The position numbers were made by a program, and so were the translations under genes. From Armatimonadota bacterium (lineage in GTDB: Bacteria; Armatimonadota; Fimbriimonadia; Fimbriimonadales; Fimbriimonadaceae), in NCBI GenBank assembly GCA_016789105.1, contig JAEURN010000004.1, positions 372,001-436,000 on the forward strand: a DNA stretch of 64,000 nucleotides. The letters are read 5' to 3'. The stretch's first letter is position 1. Each line of letters opens with the position of its first letter. Below are positions 12,549 to 23,346 of this stretch, in pieces. Under the pieces are notes generated by a model that saw only the letters and a list, made by a program, of their open reading frames with translations, did not search any database and was not told where the DNA came from.

Positions 12549-13447
12549 AAAGAGCCATTGTTGCCGGGGGAACCGGGTTTGTTGGCCGCCACCTTTGCCA
12601 AGAACTCTCCAACCAAGGCTGGGAACCAGTTGTCTTGACCCGGAAAGTTCAAAGCGGGGCCGGTTTTCGACAGGTGCAATGGGATGGCAAGAACCAGGGC
12701 GAATGGTCGGCCGAAATCAATGGGGCCGATGCCGTTTTCAATTTGAGCGGGGCACCCGTTGAGCAGAAATGGACTCCGGAGTACCGCCAAGTGATCTGCC
12801 GTTCGCGGGTGGATTCGACAGCCGCTTTGCATCAGGCGGTGAGTGCTGCCGATTCCAAACCCCGGGCGTGGGTCAACGCCAGTGCGGTCGGGTTTTATGG
12901 GGATAGAGGGGACGAGGTTTTGGGCGAGAGCGCCCGGGCCGGGGTCGGATTTTTGCCAGACGTGTGCCAGGCTTGGGAACGCGCCTGTCTCACTCCCGTT
13001 ATCGAGGGTGTCAAGCAGGTCTGCGTCCGAAACGGCCACGTCCTCGGGGCGGATGACGGATTGTTGCCGGTCATGCTCAAGCTCGCCAAATCATTTTTGG
13101 GCGGGGCCGCTGGCGATGGGAGGCAGTGGATGCCTCTGATCCATGTGCGCGATTTGGCCCGGTTCTATATCTGGTGCATCGACCACGTCAACTCGGGGCC
13201 AATCAACGGTTGCGCTCCGGAACCCGTGACCAATGCACAGTTCATGTCGCAGCTCCGGATGGCGGTTGGGCGTCCGTTTTCCCCGCCCGTCCCCAAGCCG
13301 CTGTTGGAGTTTGGAACCGGTCTGGTTGGTATGCAAGGCTCCTTGATGACAATGAGCCACCGGGCCGTGCCGACTTTGGCTCAATCGCTCGGGTTCCGGT
13401 GGGAGTTCCCGACTTTGGAATCGATGCTGGCCGACTTGGTGAAGTAG
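12545..13447 (+). CDS. TIGR01777-type sugar nucleotide epimerase-like protein (YfcH family)
   Basis: A 300-residue extended short-chain dehydrogenase. It has the N-terminal GGTGFVGRHLCQEL dinucleotide loop (about residues 7-20), NLSGAPV in place of the usual active strand end, SAVGFYGDRGDE with the conserved Tyr, and the C-terminal LLEFGTGLVGMQGSLMTMSHRAVP and LGFRWEFPTLESML segments characteristic of the YfcH group. The substrate of this group is unknown; it is placed with nucleotide-sugar epimerases by fold. Its start overlaps the ubiX stop by 4 bases, so the two are translationally coupled. Confidence 0.88.
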   Translation: MKRAIVAGGTGFVGRHLCQELSNQGWEPVVLTRKVQSGAGFRQVQWDGKNQGEWSAEINGADAVFNLSGAPVEQKWTPEYRQVICRSRVDSTAALHQAVSAADSKPRAWVNASAVGFYGDRGDEVLGESARAGVGFLPDVCQAWERACLTPVIEGVKQVCVRNGHVLGADDGLLPVMLKLAKSFLGGAAGDGRQWMPLIHVRDLARFYIWCIDHVNSGPINGCAPEPVTNAQFMSQLRMAVGRPFSPPVPKPLLEFGTGLVGMQGSLMTMSHRAVPTLAQSLGFRWEFPTLESMLADLVK

Positions 13448-13456
13448 GGCTGTTTT

Positions 13457-13488
13457 CCGCCCGGGGCGGAGTTCCGGCTTGCCGGAAC
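13457..13488 (+). repeat. Two adjacent inverted repeats after the epimerase gene
   Basis: In the 105-base gap between the epimerase and PLP-enzyme genes there are two hairpin-forming stretches: CCGCC/GGCGG around 13457-13469 and a perfect 18-base palindrome at 13471-13488 (stem GTTCCGGC, two-base TT centre). There is no T-tract, so a rho-independent terminator is not clear; a factor-dependent terminator or operator are alternatives. Confidence 0.4.
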
Positions 13489-13552
13489 GAGGGATTGGCC
13501 TCGGGCCGGGCGGTCGCTGCACCTAGCCAGGGGGTATCGTCGCCAAATCAAC

Positions 13553-14722
13553 ATGAAGCGGGAAACCCTGCTCCAACACCTAGGCGAAGAGCGGCACCAC
13601 CTGGGTGCAGTGACGCCGCCAATCTTTCAAACATCGCTGTTCGTCCAGCCCGACTTTGACACGTTCCGGGGAAAGCTCAAAGATCCGAGCCAGTCTGAAG
13701 AGCGGTTTGTTTACAGTCGGGTTGGGAACCCGAACCTCTCGATTGTCGAAAAGAAATTGGCGATGCTAGAAGGCACAGAGTCGGCTTTGGTCTTTGCCAG
13801 CGGCATGGCGGCGATTTCTGCGGCGATCCTCCATTGTGTGCGTGCCGGGGACCACATCGTCTGTATCGACACCGCTTACGGACCAACCCGCGAATTCCTG
13901 ACGAACTACCTGCCTGATTTCGGCATTGAAACGACATTCGTGGCCGGCTGCGATTCGCAGGAGATTTTCGATGCTTGCACCGAGGATACGAAGCTGGTTT
14001 ACTTGGAATCGCCGAGCAGCATCTTGTTCCGTGCCCAAGATTTCCGGGCTGTTTCGGCTTTTGCCCGCGAGCGGGGGATTTGGACCGTGGCCGACAATTC
14101 CAATGCGACACCTCTCTTCCAACAACCACATTCCCTGGGCATCGACATCGTCGTCCATTCGGCCACCAAATACCTTTGCGGCCACAGCGACGTCGTGGCG
14201 GGGGCGCTTTGTGCCCGCAAAGATGTGACAACGGCCATCGAATTGCGGGAAGGGCAATGGTTTGGCGGTAGGTTGGCCCCGTTCGATGCATGGCTGATGC
14301 TGAGGGGTTTGCGGACGCTGAAACTCCGGGTGGACGAAGCGCAGCGGCAGGGAAGGTTGCTCTTCGACTTCGTCAAAGGTCTCGGGCTGGGTGAAGTCCT
14401 CTATTCCGGGGATCCCGACCATCCCCAAGCCGGTCTCATTTCACAGCAGCAGACTGGGCACACCAGCCTGGTCACCCTCATCCCGACTTGTCAGGAAGAA
14501 TCAGCCGTCAAGCAGTTTTTGGAATCACTGAAAGTGTTTCAGATGGGGGTCAGCTGGGGCGGGTTCGAAAGCCTCGCGGTTCCCGTTTTTGGCAAACCGA
14601 TGGACTGGCCGGATGAACGGTGGATGGTGCGGTTTTATGCCGGGCTTGAAGACATCGCGGATTTGCAATTGGACATCTCGGCGGCGGCCCACCATCTTGC
14701 GCCGGCCGTCACCGCGAATTGA
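13553..14722 (+). CDS. Cys/Met metabolism PLP-dependent enzyme (cystathionine gamma-lyase/synthase family)
   Basis: A 389-residue fold-type I PLP enzyme. It shows YSRVGNPNLSIVEKKLAMLEGTESALVFASGMAAIS (residues 54-88) where the phosphate and Tyr contacts lie, VADNSNATPLFQ with the Asp181 that pairs with the pyridine nitrogen, and the Schiff-base Lys206 in HSATKYLCGHSD. The family includes cystathionine gamma-synthase, beta- and gamma-lyase, methionine gamma-lyase and O-acetylhomoserine sulfhydrylase; the sequence does not decide between them. A TATCGT hexamer sits 12 bases before the ATG. The last 14 bases overlap a small gene on the opposite strand. Confidence 0.9.
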   Translation: MKRETLLQHLGEERHHLGAVTPPIFQTSLFVQPDFDTFRGKLKDPSQSEERFVYSRVGNPNLSIVEKKLAMLEGTESALVFASGMAAISAAILHCVRAGDHIVCIDTAYGPTREFLTNYLPDFGIETTFVAGCDSQEIFDACTEDTKLVYLESPSSILFRAQDFRAVSAFARERGIWTVADNSNATPLFQQPHSLGIDIVVHSATKYLCGHSDVVAGALCARKDVTTAIELREGQWFGGRLAPFDAWLMLRGLRTLKLRVDEAQRQGRLLFDFVKGLGLGEVLYSGDPDHPQAGLISQQQTGHTSLVTLIPTCQEESAVKQFLESLKVFQMGVSWGGFESLAVPVFGKPMDWPDERWMVRFYAGLEDIADLQLDISAAAHHLAPAVTAN

Positions 14723-14825
14723 ACAGCCAACCGGCGGCGACCAGCAGCGCCGCGGCCATCGCAACCTTTTCGACCAATGACCGCAGGATGCGATCCCGGA
14801 TCACGGGGAGGGGGGGGTCGGTCAT
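14709..14825 (-). CDS. 38-residue single-span membrane mini-protein
   Basis: A short frame not usually called: 38 codons, a charged N-terminal half (DRILRSLVEK) and one predicted transmembrane helix (VAMAAALLVAAGWLF, about residues 21-35). Its ATG overlaps the TGA of the upstream gene at 14822-15184 (ATGA), the same coupling used by several gene pairs in this window, which is the main reason to believe it. No family is recognised. It overlaps the end of the PLP-enzyme gene by 14 bases antisense. Confidence 0.5.
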   Translation of the reverse strand: MTDPPLPVIRDRILRSLVEKVAMAAALLVAAGWLFNSR

Positions 14826-15184
14826 AGATCCCAGGGCATTTTCTCGGTTGTGCCGGTTTGGGCTGCGGTTTGCGTGGGCTCTGCGACGTCAACCGTTGCC
14901 ATATCCCAAGGCATGTTTTCCACAAGTTCAGCCGGAGTTGTCCCAAGTGCTGGCGCAACAACCACTTCGGCAACCTCCCGGATCGGCGTCGTTTCCGGCT
15001 CTGGCCGGTTCCGCAGGTGCTCGACTTCCCGGATGAGGGCCTTATTTTCGGTTTGAAGACGCAGCGATTCGTCGGCGTACTTCTGGGCCCGGCCGACATT
15101 GCGGAGCAACTCAATATGGCGGATCGCCTCCAGGGCGATCCCCCCTGCCAGCCCGACGCAGACCCATGCCACGGCTTCGACCAT
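14822..15184 (-). CDS. Small membrane-anchored protein with coiled coil and repeated MPWD motif
   Basis: A 120-residue protein of no recognised family. Residues 4-21 are a hydrophobic segment that could anchor it ([16 protein letters not shown]), followed by a heptad-like charged helix (about 28-58). The C-terminal 60 residues are acidic and probably unstructured, and contain the motif MPWD twice: ENMPWDM near residue 90 and EKMPWDL at the very end, which looks like a duplicated docking motif. ATG at 15184 is 7 bases after a TATCCT hexamer and also has a GAGGGA stretch before it. It is divergent from sdaA and coupled to the 38-residue membrane protein. Confidence 0.6.
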
Positions 15185-15191
15185 TCCCTCA

Positions 15192-15197
15192 AGGATA
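15192..15197 (-). promoter_or_regulatory. -10 element TATCCT, leaderless type
   Basis: On the minus strand TATCCT ends 7 bases before the ATG at 15184; TATACT for sdaA is 13 bases away on the other strand, so the two promoters lie back to back. Confidence 0.5.
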
Positions 15198-15210
15198 CCG
15201 CCCGGGCCCG

Positions 15211-15216
15211 TATACT
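15211..15216 (+). promoter_or_regulatory. -10 element TATACT, leaderless type, before sdaA
   Basis: TATACT ends exactly 6 bases before the GTG start at 15223. Confidence 0.6.
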
Positions 15217-15222
15217 CGCCCT

Positions 15223-16635
15223 GTGGCGGTTTTGCGGGAAGCGGTTTCGGTGTTCGACATTTTCAAGATCGGGGTCGGCCCCAGCAGCTCCCACACTCTT
15301 GGGCCCTGGCGCGCGGCCCAGGAATTCGTGGGATCGCTCCCCGATGGCCAAATTGAGTCGATCCATGTTGATTTGTTCGGCAGCCTGGCCAAAACCGGCA
15401 AGGGTCACGGAACCGATATCGCCGTCCAACTCGGTTTGATGGGTTGGGATCCCCGAACCTGCGATGTTTCCGCAATCGGCTCAATGTTAGAAACTATTCA
15501 GGAAACCAAACGGTTGATGTGCCGTAATGCCGAGATCGAATTCGTACCCAGCAAGCATATCGTTCTCCATCGCCAAACCACTTTGCCTTTTCATCCAAAT
15601 GGTTTGACATTTTCAGCCATCGTTGATGGAGCAAAATATTCGGAAACCTACTATTCTGTCGGGGGTGGCTTCGTGGTTAAGGAACACCAAGAGCTTTCCG
15701 GGGCCCGGTGCCTGATCCTTCCGTACCCCGTGGAAAGCGCAGCCGAACTTAGCGAGCACTGCCGATCCAACGGGCTTGATATCCCGGCCGTGAGCCGGGA
15801 AAACGAAGCACGGTGGCGCCCGGCTGGCGAAACCGAAAGTGGTCTGGCTGACATTTGGTCTGCGATGAAGGATTGCATCTACCGGGGTTGCCACACCGAT
15901 GGGGTGTTGCCGGGAGGGTTGAACGTGGTGCGCCGGGCCAAAAAGCAGAATGCCGACTTGGTCGGCACAAGGACGTATTCGGACTTCGACGGGTGGGTCG
16001 CGGCGATGCGCTACGCCAGCCCAAATTTCCAGCAGACCCTGCGCTGGATCAGCGTGTTTGCGTTGGCGGTGAACGAAGAAAATGCGGCCTTTGGCCGGGT
16101 GGTGACGGCCCCGACTAACGGGGCTGCTGGGGTGATCCCGGCGGTGATGATGTACGGGTACACATTTTTGGGGTTCACCGATTCGCAGTTGCACGACTTT
16201 TTGCTGGTCGCCGGGGAAATCGGCTGCCTCTTCAAAAAAGGGGCCACGATCAGTGCTGCGATGGGGGGGTGCATGGCGGAAATCGGCGTGAGCTCGGCCA
16301 TGGCGGCGGCCGGACACGCCTACATGTTGGGCTGCGACACGGAACGGGTTTTGATGGCTGCAGAAATCGCGATGGAGCACCACCTTGGCTTGACGTGCGA
16401 CCCCGTCGGCGGCCTTGTCCAGGTGCCCTGCATCGAGCGCAACACTATGGGGGCGATGAAAGCCATCACGGCAGCGAATATTGCCTTGGCGAGCGACCCG
16501 GCCCTGGCCAAAGTTAGCTTGGACGACGTGATTGCCACCATGTGGGAAACGGCCAAAGACATGAATACGCGATACAAGGAAACGAGCGAAGGGGGCTTGG
16601 CGGTGAGGATCCCGGTGGTTGTCCCCGAATGCTAG
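15223..16635 (+). CDS. sdaA: L-serine ammonia-lyase (iron-sulfur type)
   Basis: A 470-residue single-chain L-serine dehydratase that converts serine to pyruvate and ammonia with a [4Fe-4S] cluster. The N-terminal beta domain carries [20 protein letters not shown] and the [14 protein letters not shown] segment; the alpha domain has [59 protein letters not shown], supplying the cluster cysteines. GTG at 15223 is chosen because a TATACT hexamer ends exactly 6 bases before it and because family N-termini begin about here; the open frame extends 19 codons further upstream without homology. It converges with trhO with a 4-base overlap. Confidence 0.95.
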
Positions 16636-17393
16636 CGGCTGGGTTGCAGGGAGCCGTCCACGCCGATCCGCTCGTCGAAGACAAAACATTCGCCGAGGAA
16701 TAGGCTTTCAGAAGGGGGGATTTCTTCCAAGTAGCGCAAGATCCCGCCTTCGAGGTGGAAGACCTGGCTGTGGCCGAGTTGGCGAAGATAAGCGGTCGCC
16801 TTTTCGCACCGGATCCCCCCAGTGCAAAACATCGCCACCGGTTGGTCGCGGTTTTCCAGCCGCTGGGCATATTCGGGGAATTCGTTGAAGGCATTGGTGC
16901 CCGGATCAACTGCGCCTTGGAATGTCCCCAGTTCAATTTCATAGGTGTTCCGGCAATCGATCAGGAGGACATCGGATCGGGAGATCAGAGCATTCCAATT
17001 ACGGGGCGGAACGTAGGTTCCGACTCCGGCGTTGGGGTCTACCCCCGGCACGCCCATGGTGACAATCTCCTGTTTGAGCCGGACTTTCCACCGCTTGAAC
17101 GGCGGTGCGGAGGCGGTGCTGAATTTGATGTCCAACCCGGTGAACCGGGGGTCGGTTGCCAGGGATTTGAAGAAGGAAGCGACATCTGCCGGTGTGCCGC
17201 AAAGCGTGGAATTGATGCCTTCGGGGGCTACCAGCACGGTGCCCAAAAGGTTGTGGGCCAGTCCGAGGCTATCAACCCAGCCGGCAACAGATTCTGGATC
17301 CCCGATTGGGGTGAACCGATAAAACGCGGCGACTTTTGCCACGTGGGGTTCAAGCTTGGGCGTGTGCGGTTCCCCTGATGGCATCGACGGCAT
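16632..17393 (-). CDS. trhO: tRNA uridine(34) hydroxylase, rhodanese-like (TrhO/YceA)
   Basis: A 253-residue protein with an N-terminal acylphosphatase-like domain ([15 protein letters not shown]... to [17 protein letters not shown]) and a rhodanese domain from about residue 125 with the active loop [10 protein letters not shown]. TrhO hydroxylates U34 of tRNA to 5-hydroxyuridine. The family usually has further C-terminal cysteines; this one ends soon after the rhodanese domain, so it is at the short end. The start is uncertain: ATG at 17393 overlaps the upstream gene by 44 bases, while GTG at 17342 would start just after that gene and still keep the conserved N-terminus. Confidence 0.88.
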
Positions 17394-19536: not shown

Positions 19537-21363
19537 ATGCTGTCGGCCATCAGCGCATTAGTGCTTTCCACGCCCCTGATCGTCCGAACCGAAAACACCG
19601 TCCCCATCGCGGTTGTCTCGTTGGAGACGATCCAGGAAAACCGTTCGGTGGAAGGGGTCGCCCGCCTGCTGGATGTGACTTACAAAGCCGAGTTCATCCC
19701 TCAAGCGGTGCCGGATGCCGGCACTGTCAACTTGCGGGGATTCCGGAACCTGAACTTCCGTTACAACGATTCGCCAGGGAAGTTCGAAATGAGACCCGTG
19801 TTGGACTCGTCACTGCTTGAGCAAATCGAGGTCTTGCGGGGCACCCAGGCGCTTTCAACCTACGGGGGATCGGCGAGCGGGGCGGTTTTGAACTTGGCGA
19901 TTCGGGACACGTATTCGGCGGTTCCGCGGGGGACGAACATGTTCAAACCGATTTCGGTCGACCCTTTGCAGTTTGCCCAGCAAGGGGGCTGGAACAGGCA
20001 GGAATATAGCTTCAACAAGGAAAAACTTAGCCTGGACTATAAGATCTCCGCGAGCTATTCCTATGGGGGGAAGTCGTACCAGGATTATGTCGATAAGGGG
20101 TCAATCGGACTTGGTCAGATTTGGATGCCAGTGGGAGAGCCGACAATGTCGAGCTTTGTCCCCGACGGGAAACCAAACAAGGACCTGCAACACGGCCTGG
20201 GGGGGATTTGGGTTCAGCCGCAGAACACCGAACTCGGATTCCAAGCATTTTTTCCGCCTTTGACCTTAGGCCAAATCACCAGCGGCAAGACACCGCAGGG
20301 TTATGTCACGGATGTCGAGAAGGCCAATGGTGAGATGGTTGTCAAGTCGATGCAGAAGTTGGGCTATTCGTTCCCGCAGATGATCGCGGCTCTCCAAACC
20401 CTTGCCCCGGAAGGCACGGACATGAACCGGTTGAACTTTCCTTCTTTGGATGGTGACCCGTGCGATTACGACTTGGACTGCCCGCCGGGGACGATCTGGT
20501 ACCCCAGTAACCCGGCATACCAGGCGATGATGACGGGTGTGCGATATTCGCGGCTGACCTTTGCCGAGGTCTTCGCCGGGATCGGCCGGGGGGGCCAGGA
20601 TCCCCGTGCGATGAGGGTTCTGTGCATGAACATGGAGAAGAAGGAGCCTGCCGCGGGGGTGAAGTACTACCCTTACCGGCCAAAAGATCCCGTCATTTCT
20701 TCGCTGGCCAATTTGATGGATCAGGCGAATTTCCGCGGACCTTGGGATCAAGCGCGGCTGTGGATCTACACGGACAAAGCGACTTATGAGCAGGTCAACG
20801 AACGGCTTGTCAACGGGGTCGGGCAATCCGCCTACTTGATGGCTTTGGCCGACGTCGCCTTTGCGGGAGGGTTGGATGACAAGATGTTAAAGGATCCCAA
20901 ATACGTCAAGCCGGAATTCATGATTGGCTCAGGCGCTCCGTCCTACGCCCGGACGTGGTTGATGGAGACCTTGGACGCGTTCCACCCCAAGAAGGCTGGC
21001 GAATGGTTGAAGGGCAATGCGGCGACGATGCTCCAACTGGTGGGCCCAAAAGCAGACCAGGATGACAACCAACATCTGGCCGACACCCTCCGCCGGATGA
21101 CGTCGTTCAGCGCGCCCGAAGACCGGGAGGCGGCGCTCCGGTTTATGAGCGCGGCCAAGGCCCAGATCGGGATGCTCAAGGGCAAGTTGGGATCGGGGAG
21201 CGATTCGCTCTACTCCGGCCGGGAATCTGAAGTGGCTTTGGCGCTTGCCTTGGTCAAAGAAGGATTCCTAACCCAGGCAAACGATGCCTTGGCGTATGTG
21301 GCCGAAAAGGGTCCAGGAGATTCCAATAAGGCACTGGCCAAACAACTGTTGGCGGGCGGGTGA
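19537..21363 (+). CDS. TonB-plug domain fused to an unknown domain (no beta-barrel)
   Basis: A 608-residue protein. After a hydrophobic N-terminus, residues about 22-127 match the TonB-dependent receptor plug: a VPIAVVSLETIQ entry, NLRGFRNLNF in the RG position, and SSLLEQIEVLRGTQALSTYGGSASGAVLNLAIRD, the hallmark plug ending. The rest is not a 22-strand barrel: from about residue 165 to the end it is clearly homologous to the next gene's product, with a central GDPCDYDLDCPPGTIWYPS block and a long helical C-terminus. Function is unknown; location in the periplasm or outer membrane is inferred. It and its neighbour lie in tandem, each with its own promoter-like sequence. Confidence 0.8.
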   Translation: MLSAISALVLSTPLIVRTENTVPIAVVSLETIQENRSVEGVARLLDVTYKAEFIPQAVPDAGTVNLRGFRNLNFRYNDSPGKFEMRPVLDSSLLEQIEVLRGTQALSTYGGSASGAVLNLAIRDTYSAVPRGTNMFKPISVDPLQFAQQGGWNRQEYSFNKEKLSLDYKISASYSYGGKSYQDYVDKGSIGLGQIWMPVGEPTMSSFVPDGKPNKDLQHGLGGIWVQPQNTELGFQAFFPPLTLGQITSGKTPQGYVTDVEKANGEMVVKSMQKLGYSFPQMIAALQTLAPEGTDMNRLNFPSLDGDPCDYDLDCPPGTIWYPSNPAYQAMMTGVRYSRLTFAEVFAGIGRGGQDPRAMRVLCMNMEKKEPAAGVKYYPYRPKDPVISSLANLMDQANFRGPWDQARLWIYTDKATYEQVNERLVNGVGQSAYLMALADVAFAGGLDDKMLKDPKYVKPEFMIGSGAPSYARTWLMETLDAFHPKKAGEWLKGNAATMLQLVGPKADQDDNQHLADTLRRMTSFSAPEDREAALRFMSAAKAQIGMLKGKLGSGSDSLYSGRESEVALALALVKEGFLTQANDALAYVAEKGPGDSNKALAKQLLAGG

Positions 21364-21513: not shown

Positions 21514-23346
21514 ATGTTGACATCGGTGGTCGCCTTTGCCGTTATCGGAGGGATAAAGACTTTTCAAGACCCAGAGGCGAGATCGATCATCTCAAACCCT
21601 TTCAAAACCAGCCGCGAAAAGGTGATGGACGGGGGCAAAGAGGTGGAAGCCGATGTGACCTATTACGCCACGTTTTCACTACTATCGAACAGTTTGACCC
21701 CTAGCGAACAGATGAATAGGGTTTTCCGTACCTTGGATGTCCGACCAGAACATCCCGGCGAGCGGTTCAACATGAGCTGCATTTTTGAAAAGGTTGATCC
21801 GAATGAAGGGGAGATGTTGGAGGCGTACCTGACGTTTCGGGAATTCGGGGCGAGCGAGTCGATAGGAGCCGAGATTCTGAAGGCAATCAAGTCGATCACC
21901 GCCTATTCGGCCGGAGTTGGCAAGGACGCGGTGAGTTGCGATCCGAACAGCGGCATCAAGCCCGACGGTTGGACACACCGCGAATACGGACATAGCCTCT
22001 CAAAGTGCGTATGCGCTTACCAAATCACCAAGGTTTGGTCAATCGGTGGGAAGAAGTCGTCAAAAGTTGAGAAGGGCGGGACCATTGAAATCGGTGATAT
22101 GTGGACGCCGAAGAGAGATCCGCTTGTTGATCGCTTTAGGCCAGATGGAGAGCCGGAAAAAGAGACCCAGGAGGAGATGGGCGGCGTTACGGTGAAGCCT
22201 TCGCCAACTGCAAACCCGTTCCAGATCTTCCTCCCCCAAATCAAAGGGAACCCTTACTACCCCAGCATCAAACCGGTGCAATACATCAAGGATGTTACTG
22301 AAGAAAATGGCTCCGAGCTTGTAGACCTCATGGTGAAGGAAGGCTTCACCATCCCCCGCATGATCGATATCCTTGGCAAGATCGCCCCGGAAGGAACCGA
22401 CATGAACCGTCTGAGCTTTTTGGAGGGTGGCGACCCGTGTGATAGCGACATGGATTTCCCTCCAGGCACGATATGGATTCCAAGTGACCCCGCCTACCAA
22501 TCGATGATGACCGGGGTTCGGTTCAATCGGAGGATTCTCGGCTTCGACCTTTATGCAAGCCTGAACCCGGCTCCTCAAGATGGAAAGTTCGCTATGCGCA
22601 CGCTTTGCTTGAATATGGAAAAACGGGAACCGGCAAAAGGGGTGAAGTATTATCCCTACCGCCCCAGCGACCCGGTGATCCCAATGCTCGCCCGACGGAT
22701 GGACGAATCACGTAGCCGGGGCCCCTGGGATCAAGCCCGAATGTGGATCTACACCGACAAGGCGACAATGGAGATGGTGAACCACAAGTTGGTCAACGGG
22801 GTTGGGACATCAGCCTATCTCATGGCTTTGGCAGATGTCGGATGGGCTGGCGGGTTGAGCGACAAGATGCTGAAAGACCCCAAGTTTTTCACTCCAGAAC
22901 TGATGTTGGGCTCCGGTGCCCCGGAATACGCCTCTTCTTATTTAATGGAGGTCTTGGACGACCTGCATCCAAAAAAAGCTGGCGACTGGCTCCGCAAAAA
23001 CGCGACGTCGATGTTGCAACTGGTCGGCCCCCAGGCAGACCAAGACGACAATAAGCACCTTGCCGAAACCTTGCGCCGGTTGACCCTGTTTAATGCGCCG
23101 GAAGACCGAGAGGCTGCCTTGAAGTTCATGTTGGCAACGCAGAAGGAACTGGCGGGACTTAAAGGGCAGCTAGGAAGCGGTCGGCTAGCCCTTTACTCGG
23201 GCCGGAACGAAGAGGTAGCGCCAGCGCTCGCGTTAGTCAAAGCCGGGTACTTAACGCCAGCGAAAGATGCCCTTGAGTTTGTAGCAGTGAACGGCCCGGG
23301 CGATGCCAACAAGGCATTGGCTAAAGAGATATTGGGCGGCCTTTAA
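21514..23346 (+). CDS. Paralogue of the preceding protein, without the plug domain
   Basis: A 610-residue protein of unrecognised family with a hydrophobic N-terminus (VVAFAVIGGI) that may be a signal or anchor. Residues 30-165 differ from the paralogue (no TonB plug; several Cys at about 149, 172 and 174 instead). From about residue 180 the two align: GDMWTP...RPDGEP, APEGTDMNRLSF, GDPCDSDMDFPPGTIWIPSDPAYQSMMTGVRFNR, MRTLCLNMEKREPAKGVKYYPYRPSDPVI, GPWDQARMWIYTDKAT, VNGVG-x-SAYLMALADV and GSGAPEYA. The C-terminal 250 residues look helical and repeat-like. By eye the C-terminal part is well above half identical to its neighbour, so this is a recent duplication with an N-terminal domain swap. 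Confidence 0.75.
   Translation: MLTSVVAFAVIGGIKTFQDPEARSIISNPFKTSREKVMDGGKEVEADVTYYATFSLLSNSLTPSEQMNRVFRTLDVRPEHPGERFNMSCIFEKVDPNEGEMLEAYLTFREFGASESIGAEILKAIKSITAYSAGVGKDAVSCDPNSGIKPDGWTHREYGHSLSKCVCAYQITKVWSIGGKKSSKVEKGGTIEIGDMWTPKRDPLVDRFRPDGEPEKETQEEMGGVTVKPSPTANPFQIFLPQIKGNPYYPSIKPVQYIKDVTEENGSELVDLMVKEGFTIPRMIDILGKIAPEGTDMNRLSFLEGGDPCDSDMDFPPGTIWIPSDPAYQSMMTGVRFNRRILGFDLYASLNPAPQDGKFAMRTLCLNMEKREPAKGVKYYPYRPSDPVIPMLARRMDESRSRGPWDQARMWIYTDKATMEMVNHKLVNGVGTSAYLMALADVGWAGGLSDKMLKDPKFFTPELMLGSGAPEYASSYLMEVLDDLHPKKAGDWLRKNATSMLQLVGPQADQDDNKHLAETLRRLTLFNAPEDREAALKFMLATQKELAGLKGQLGSGRLALYSGRNEEVAPALALVKAGYLTPAKDALEFVAVNGPGDANKALAKEILGGL

Follow-up and report, generated by a model that had tools for sequence, protein, structure and literature searches.

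Two coupled genes in a Fimbriimonadaceae genome encode a pair of small membrane proteins, here called A and B. B is a conserved small membrane protein (50 aa or less) under purifying selection in relatives, and A is a variant, specific to its lineage, of the anchored helix-hairpin-helix (HhH) proteins, in which a repeated MPWD motif is probably what remains of folded HhH modules. The conservation of the small gene and the probable descent of the repeat from folded modules are what this analysis adds to an earlier sequence-only reading of the same DNA, a window of 64,000 nucleotides. We tentatively propose, at somewhat less than an even chance, that A and B form a two-protein inner-membrane scaffold that docks on a cytoplasmic partner through PWD peptides.

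Genes A and B and their surroundings

Gene A (14822..15184, minus strand) encodes 120 residues, with an N-terminal anchor, a probable coiled coil and an acidic tail bearing two MPWD copies. The sequence-only reading had described this organization, and it was confirmed by the frame itself, its hydropathy and the net charge of the tail (−7 over residues 66-120). The best 17-residue hydropathy window lies in the one N-terminal hydrophobic stretch, starting at residue 5 with a mean of 1.96. The predicted membrane span (residues 5-21; 15122..15172, minus strand) contains GLAGG, a GxxxG motif whose glycines G11 and G15 are invariant in 10/10 A-type anchors of a hand-chosen set. The coil probably covers residues about 30-62 (14999..15097, minus strand), as judged from the residue pattern and a low-confidence model of the full-length ACE_ARM8 orthologue; this model is poor (pLDDT 46), has helices at 34-52 and 54-76, and was kept out of the fold search. 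The repeat, which had been placed near residue 90 and at the end of the protein, starts at residues 91 and 116: the first MPWD occupies residues 91-94 (14903..14914, minus strand) and the second residues 116-119 (14828..14839, minus strand), one residue ahead of the stop. These two copies compare with about 0.0002 expected from A's own composition, and their Pro codons differ (CCT vs CCC). A alone has no match in NCBIfam and at best a coiled-coil resemblance to Fungal_TACC in Pfam (E 0.043).

Gene B (14709..14825, minus strand) shares ATGA with A and encodes 38 residues, with an N-terminus predicted to be cytoplasmic and a single predicted span at residues 21-37 (14715..14765, minus strand; best 17-residue hydropathy window from residue 21, mean 1.75). 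B alone matches nothing in Pfam or NCBIfam. The G+C content by codon position is gene-like in both A (0.71/0.45/0.66) and B (0.67/0.49/0.82), resembling that of the two neighbouring genes.

Both neighbours lie outside the pair. A Cys/Met-metabolism PLP enzyme (13553..14722, plus strand; Pfam PF01053, 316 bits) overlaps B by 14 nt at its 3' end, and a divergent L-serine dehydratase (15223..16635, plus strand; Pfam SDH_alpha 270.5 bits and SDH_beta 184.9 bits) has a GTG start inferred from orthologues. The gap between the starts of A and the dehydratase is only 38 nt (15185-15222). No promoter-like (sigma-70-like) or terminator-like site was found at 14600-15500, and Rfam gave nothing above the gathering score at 13000-17000. 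Elsewhere in the window, two adjacent frames of about 610 aa each (19537-21363 and 21514-23346, plus strand) have similar C-terminal parts; a TonB-receptor plug domain (PF07715, 28.8 bits) is matched at the N-terminus of the first frame only, and there is otherwise no Pfam match at E 0.001.

Could the MPWD codons at the end of A be kept as a ribosome-binding sequence for B and not as a peptide? TGGGAT indeed stands just ahead of B's ATG in the window. In the other six genomes, however, the last PWD codons end 15-47 nt before the B start, and the first MPWD is internal. We consider this reading extremely improbable and reject it on the distances from PWD to the B start.

Conservation of the pair in relatives

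The relatives of the window species are Fimbriimonadaceae (Armatimonadota). With the window genome as G000, the named ones are BC.035 (G005), Uphvl-Ar1 (G006), ACE_ARM7 (G004) and ACE_ARM8 (G003). Of the eight genus genomes, 7/8 have A with a B-like frame behind it, the window included, so that A has orthologues in 6 further genomes; the eighth, the closest relative G007, has contig breaks at the locus, which truncate the PLP gene (81% identical) and the serine dehydratase (90%). The dN/dS figures below therefore come from other relatives and exclude the window lineage. With B starts picked by hand, the B start minus the A end in the seven genomes is −4, −4, −1, −20, −20, +6 and +9 nt. The earlier proposal of a 38-residue single-span frame coupled to A through ATGA thus held, and the small frame, whose presence in close relatives it had singled out as the thing to look for, stands as a one-span frame behind A in all seven readable genus genomes.

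Searched as a single sequence, A was found in four of the other seven genomes of the genus, at E 3e-6 to 5e-5, and weakly in one outside the genus. The orthologues are longer than window A: 226 aa in G005 and G006, 229 in G003 and G004, 252 in G002, and 242-244 in G001, depending on the start. Between G005 and G006, dN/dS is 0.048 for the anchor and coil, 0.069 for HhH and 0.49 for the tail, which shows purifying selection on A's anchor in relatives.

In B, ACE_ARM7 and ACE_ARM8 differ by 7 synonymous and 3 non-synonymous changes (dN/dS 0.097), and G005 and G006 by 9 and 3, respectively (dN/dS 0.069); B is therefore a real gene in these two pairs. As a single sequence it found the locus, apart from the window itself, in no genomes other than G005 and G006. 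A B profile built from five genomes, searched against 85 family genomes, matched those five strongly, G001 weakly at the right place (E 0.0036) and five other family genomes weakly, and did not find the B of G002. The frames of G001 and G002 are called B by position and span, and that of G002 has the ATGA overlap.

The PLP enzyme adjoins the pair in five of the seven genomes (not G005 or G006), and the serine dehydratase adjoins A in five of seven (not G002; G001 is not resolved), so these neighbours are not fixed.

HhH modules in the orthologues of A

The longer orthologues carry HhH modules. Pfam detects them above cut-off in G001 (HHH_5 43.2 bits, cut-off 27; DUF4332 33.7 bits) and G002 (DUF4332 32.8 bits, cut-off 23.2; HHH_5 28.0 bits), and scores G003-G006 below it. 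Our HhH-module profile finds modules in all A orthologues from G001 to G006, a detection that is not independent because the profile was built from the same units, except those of G004. Window A itself has no HhH match in Pfam (HHH_5 or DUF4332), and the profile finds no module at the locus (E 0.01). In a sample of 151 phylum genomes, the profile had matches of E 1e-6 or better in 11, of which nine belong to this family.

What is PWD in these modules? They end in [MQ]PWD...W[IQ], with [MQ]PWD as the stretch before the last helix. We aligned 15 modules, eight of the A group (excluding the two of G004) and a selection of seven from anchored HhH proteins outside it, and the W of PWD is invariant in all 15. 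The residue after PW is D in 8/8 A-group modules and Q or R in 7/7 of the others; the HhH protein of locus L079, outside this alignment, has WK at the place of PWD. A model of the second ACE_ARM8 module (pLDDT 76; helices at 16-23, 30-35, 38-46 and 55-65) puts PWD at 49-51, in the loop ahead of the last helix. The eight best Foldseek matches of this model are all RadA entries, the best at E 0.57 and thus without significance.

Such modules might tie DNA to the membrane, with the window form having lost the activity or acting together with a second copy. The Pfam matches of G001 (HHH_5) and G002 (DUF4332) above cut-off would suit such a chromosome anchor, as would the presence of RadA, Rad51, NusA and DNA polymerase IV among the 35 chains that the profile matched in solved sequences. 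However, these matches are led by a designed protein, the ribosomal protein eL32 and protein-O, ahead of RadA (E 5e-5 to 2e-4 for the four), and in NCBIfam the L21, PhaH, NuoE and S2 models end in the same HhH domain, with every match under the cut-off of its model. The HhH consensus has a GxG hairpin, and its second glycine is absent in 8/8 A-group modules and in 1/7 of the others (present in 6/7); judged against that consensus, the missing glycine speaks for protein over DNA contacts. Window A, moreover, has no module. We regard a chromosome anchor as unlikely.

Probable loss of module cores and retention of both PWDs

The number of HhH modules per A protein is two in G001-G004, one in G005 and G006, and zero in the window, and the number of PWDs is exactly two in 7/7 A proteins, whatever the number of HhH cores. 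The spacing between the two PWDs is 74-77 residues with two modules, 69 with one and 25 in window A. A tree of the PLP enzyme joins the window with Uphvl-Ar1 and BC.035 (98/97), then ACE_ARM7/8 (83/90) and then G002 (85/91); it was made without G007, three of its seven inner branches are starred (the 83/90 fork is not), its deepest forks are weak and its root is for drawing only. The order of this tree and the counts of 2, 1 and 0 fit a stepwise loss; the simplest reading would be that one HhH core was lost and then the other, with the PWDs staying. Window A looks like a version that lost its module cores.

The flanks of the window motifs are not significantly similar to HhH modules: shuffles score as well in 21% (left) and 12% (right) of cases for the first MPWD, and in 53% for the left flank of the second. 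The first MPWD is thus matched to the PWD of module 1 in the orthologues by order and not by flank similarity, and what supports the probable descent of the window PWDs from HhH is their order and number, together with the phylogeny. Since the flanks resemble modules no more than chance would give, it is also possible that the two MPWDs of the window arose by duplication of one surviving MPWD.

The same tree and counts could instead trace decay, window A having lost its HhH modules to become a functionless remnant with the MPWDs as leftovers. The modules do go from 2 to 1 to 0 along the tree, the dN/dS values come from relatives and none from the window lineage, and the MPWD flanks no longer resemble HhH beyond chance. 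Against decay, the frames of A and B are intact and coupled, the anchor of A is well conserved, the codon-position G+C is gene-like, and both MPWDs stayed while the surrounding sequence changed. We find decay doubtful, though by no means negligible.

If the PWD stretches were retained after loss of the modules, they may have a job of their own. The last nine residues of the A tail, KQKMPWDPD, are identical in G005 and G006, although the tail as a whole evolves fast (dN/dS 0.49). Within this one species pair, such a conserved peptide in a fast-evolving tail is what would be expected of a short linear motif, the disorder of the tail being judged from composition. This makes docking by the A tail plausible, as the sequence-only reading had proposed from repeated Trp motifs at the end of unstructured tails; its picture has to be amended in that PWD is internal to an HhH module in the longer orthologues. 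If HhH cores were lost along nested lineages while the PWDs stayed, a partner would read PWD and not the HhH fold. That a segment of a domain has turned into a free-standing docking peptide, with cores lost (2, 1, 0) and both PWDs kept, is a possibility that we hold cautiously, well below an even chance.

A genome-wide family of such tails was also sought. MPWD followed by TAA or TGA, the stops covered, within nine bases occurs at ten places in the eight genus genomes, and in the window genome only in gene A. Of the other nine sites, seven were examined, and in no case does a frame of at least 30 aa terminate there with MPWD and 0-3 further residues; the two remaining sites are the known orthologue sites of G003 and G004. 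With no second tail of this kind in the window genome, no family was seen.

Other coupled pairs of anchored HhH proteins

The A/B arrangement is not the only one of its kind. On contig 10 of the window genome (locus L080, 1642-2929), between genes that we take from their sequences to be tuf and rplC, an anchored coil and HhH protein overlaps a second N-terminally anchored gene. This pair resembles A/B in that layout, but its HhH member has a full module with PWR in place of PWD, and its partner has Big_6 Ig-like domains (42.4 bits). The tuf-rplC pair is found at the same place in G005 and G006, and G003 has a matching HhH gene beside rplC. In ACE_ARM7 the pair beside rplC has a partner of 113 aa with a hydrophobic stretch and an acidic, His-containing tail, not an Ig domain; this partner gene lies at 1695-2036 of locus L117.

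We scored 21 loci of HhH proteins, mostly best family matches, by script; four missed its motif, which left 17. In 14 of these 17 loci, the HhH gene either overlaps or is followed within 17 nt by a coupled frame on the same strand whose N-terminal part includes a hydrophobic stretch (best window means 1.27-2.36). L020, L079 and L023 were not counted; in L023 the next frame is hydrophobic but lies opposite a large frame that we took as the real gene. In three of the 17 (L026, L028 and L030), the HhH frame as cut has no N-terminal span. An anchored partner of this kind occurs at two more loci as well, L117 and L123. In G028, an anchored HhH gene is overlapped by a short frame that, like B, is nearly span only (L032, 1713-1961).

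Comparison of the B profile with the N-termini of these partners by hhalign gave a probability of 82% for nine segments picked by hand, where A anchors gave 0.2%. With all 14 partner segments cut mechanically the probability was 31%; A anchors gave 5%, and 60 random sets of 14 reached 9% at most. The three genus partners gave 41%, against a maximum of 2% among 60 random triples, and the 14 segments taken singly gave 0.06-29%. These values are suggestive of a relationship between B and the N-termini of the partners of other HhH genes. As the B profile is nearer to partner N-termini than to random hydrophobic segments, B may be a partner reduced to its anchor, a reading that is suggestive only.

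They also bear on the idea that B has nothing to do with A and acts as a small hydrophobic peptide of a toxin-like or regulatory kind. A length of 38 aa with one span would fit such a peptide, yet B stands behind A in all seven readable genomes, Rfam gives no match at the locus above the gathering score, and the B profile is nearer to the N-termini of anchored HhH partners. We think this very unlikely.

Comparison with known systems

ComEA is a membrane-anchored HhH protein that has its HhH outside the cytoplasm, for DNA uptake; in the A type, in contrast, positive residues after the span suggest that the HhH would be inside. ZapG/YhcB (DUF1043) combines an N-terminal span with a cytoplasmic coil and a flexible tail, a layout comparable to that predicted for A. 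Unlike it, A has no DUF1043 profile match in Pfam or NCBIfam; the second HhH protein of the window genome resembles DUF1043 weakly in its anchor region (E 9e-4, 19.1 bits, cut-off 150).

Another relevant system is protein-O of the Dinoroseobacter shibae RC-LH1 (PDB 8yy9 chain O). In the portions of its report used here, a long flexible linker joins its N-terminal membrane domain to a C-terminal domain that NuoE shares, and it is an accessory subunit of a photosynthetic membrane complex; according to the authors, the function of protein-O is unknown (PMC12079452). This C-terminal domain matches the HhH of the second anchored HhH protein of G006 (phmmer E 0.0009), and the membrane part, the linker and the accessory place in a membrane complex make protein-O comparable to the pair. 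It differs in that its anchor is a two-helix hairpin, as against one N-terminal stretch in A, and in that those portions mention neither a coupled one-span partner nor the term HhH (PMC12079452). In addition, protein-O has no PWD in the stretch aligned with the G006 HhH protein, and window A, with no HhH and one hydrophobic stretch, lacks the layout of a two-helix hairpin with an HhH C-terminus. No report of the A/B pair appeared among the papers listed in a literature search.

A proposed membrane scaffold

By the positive-inside rule, the positive residues after the A span and before the B span would place the A tail and the B N-terminus in the cytoplasm. In the arrangement that we infer, from topology and A-B contact to docking and the descent of the bare PWDs from modules, A would cross the inner membrane with one N-terminal helix and hold its coiled coil and acidic flexible tail in the cytoplasm. 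B, made by coupled translation, would be a one-helix partner of opposite orientation that packs against the A helix; GxxxG is a known helix-packing motif. In relatives, the A tail would bear HhH modules ending in the PWD segment, and in the window species, with the module cores gone, the two bare MPWD peptides would dock on the cytoplasmic partner, for which an HhH protein of the same family is a candidate.

If this is right, the locus would show, within a coupled membrane pair, how a domain is reduced to a linear motif, with the intermediate stages still living, and it would add a conserved gene so short that gene finders may overlook it. Membrane-anchored HhH proteins, which have an obscure role even when a structure is available, as it is for protein-O, would also gain a function that can be tested.
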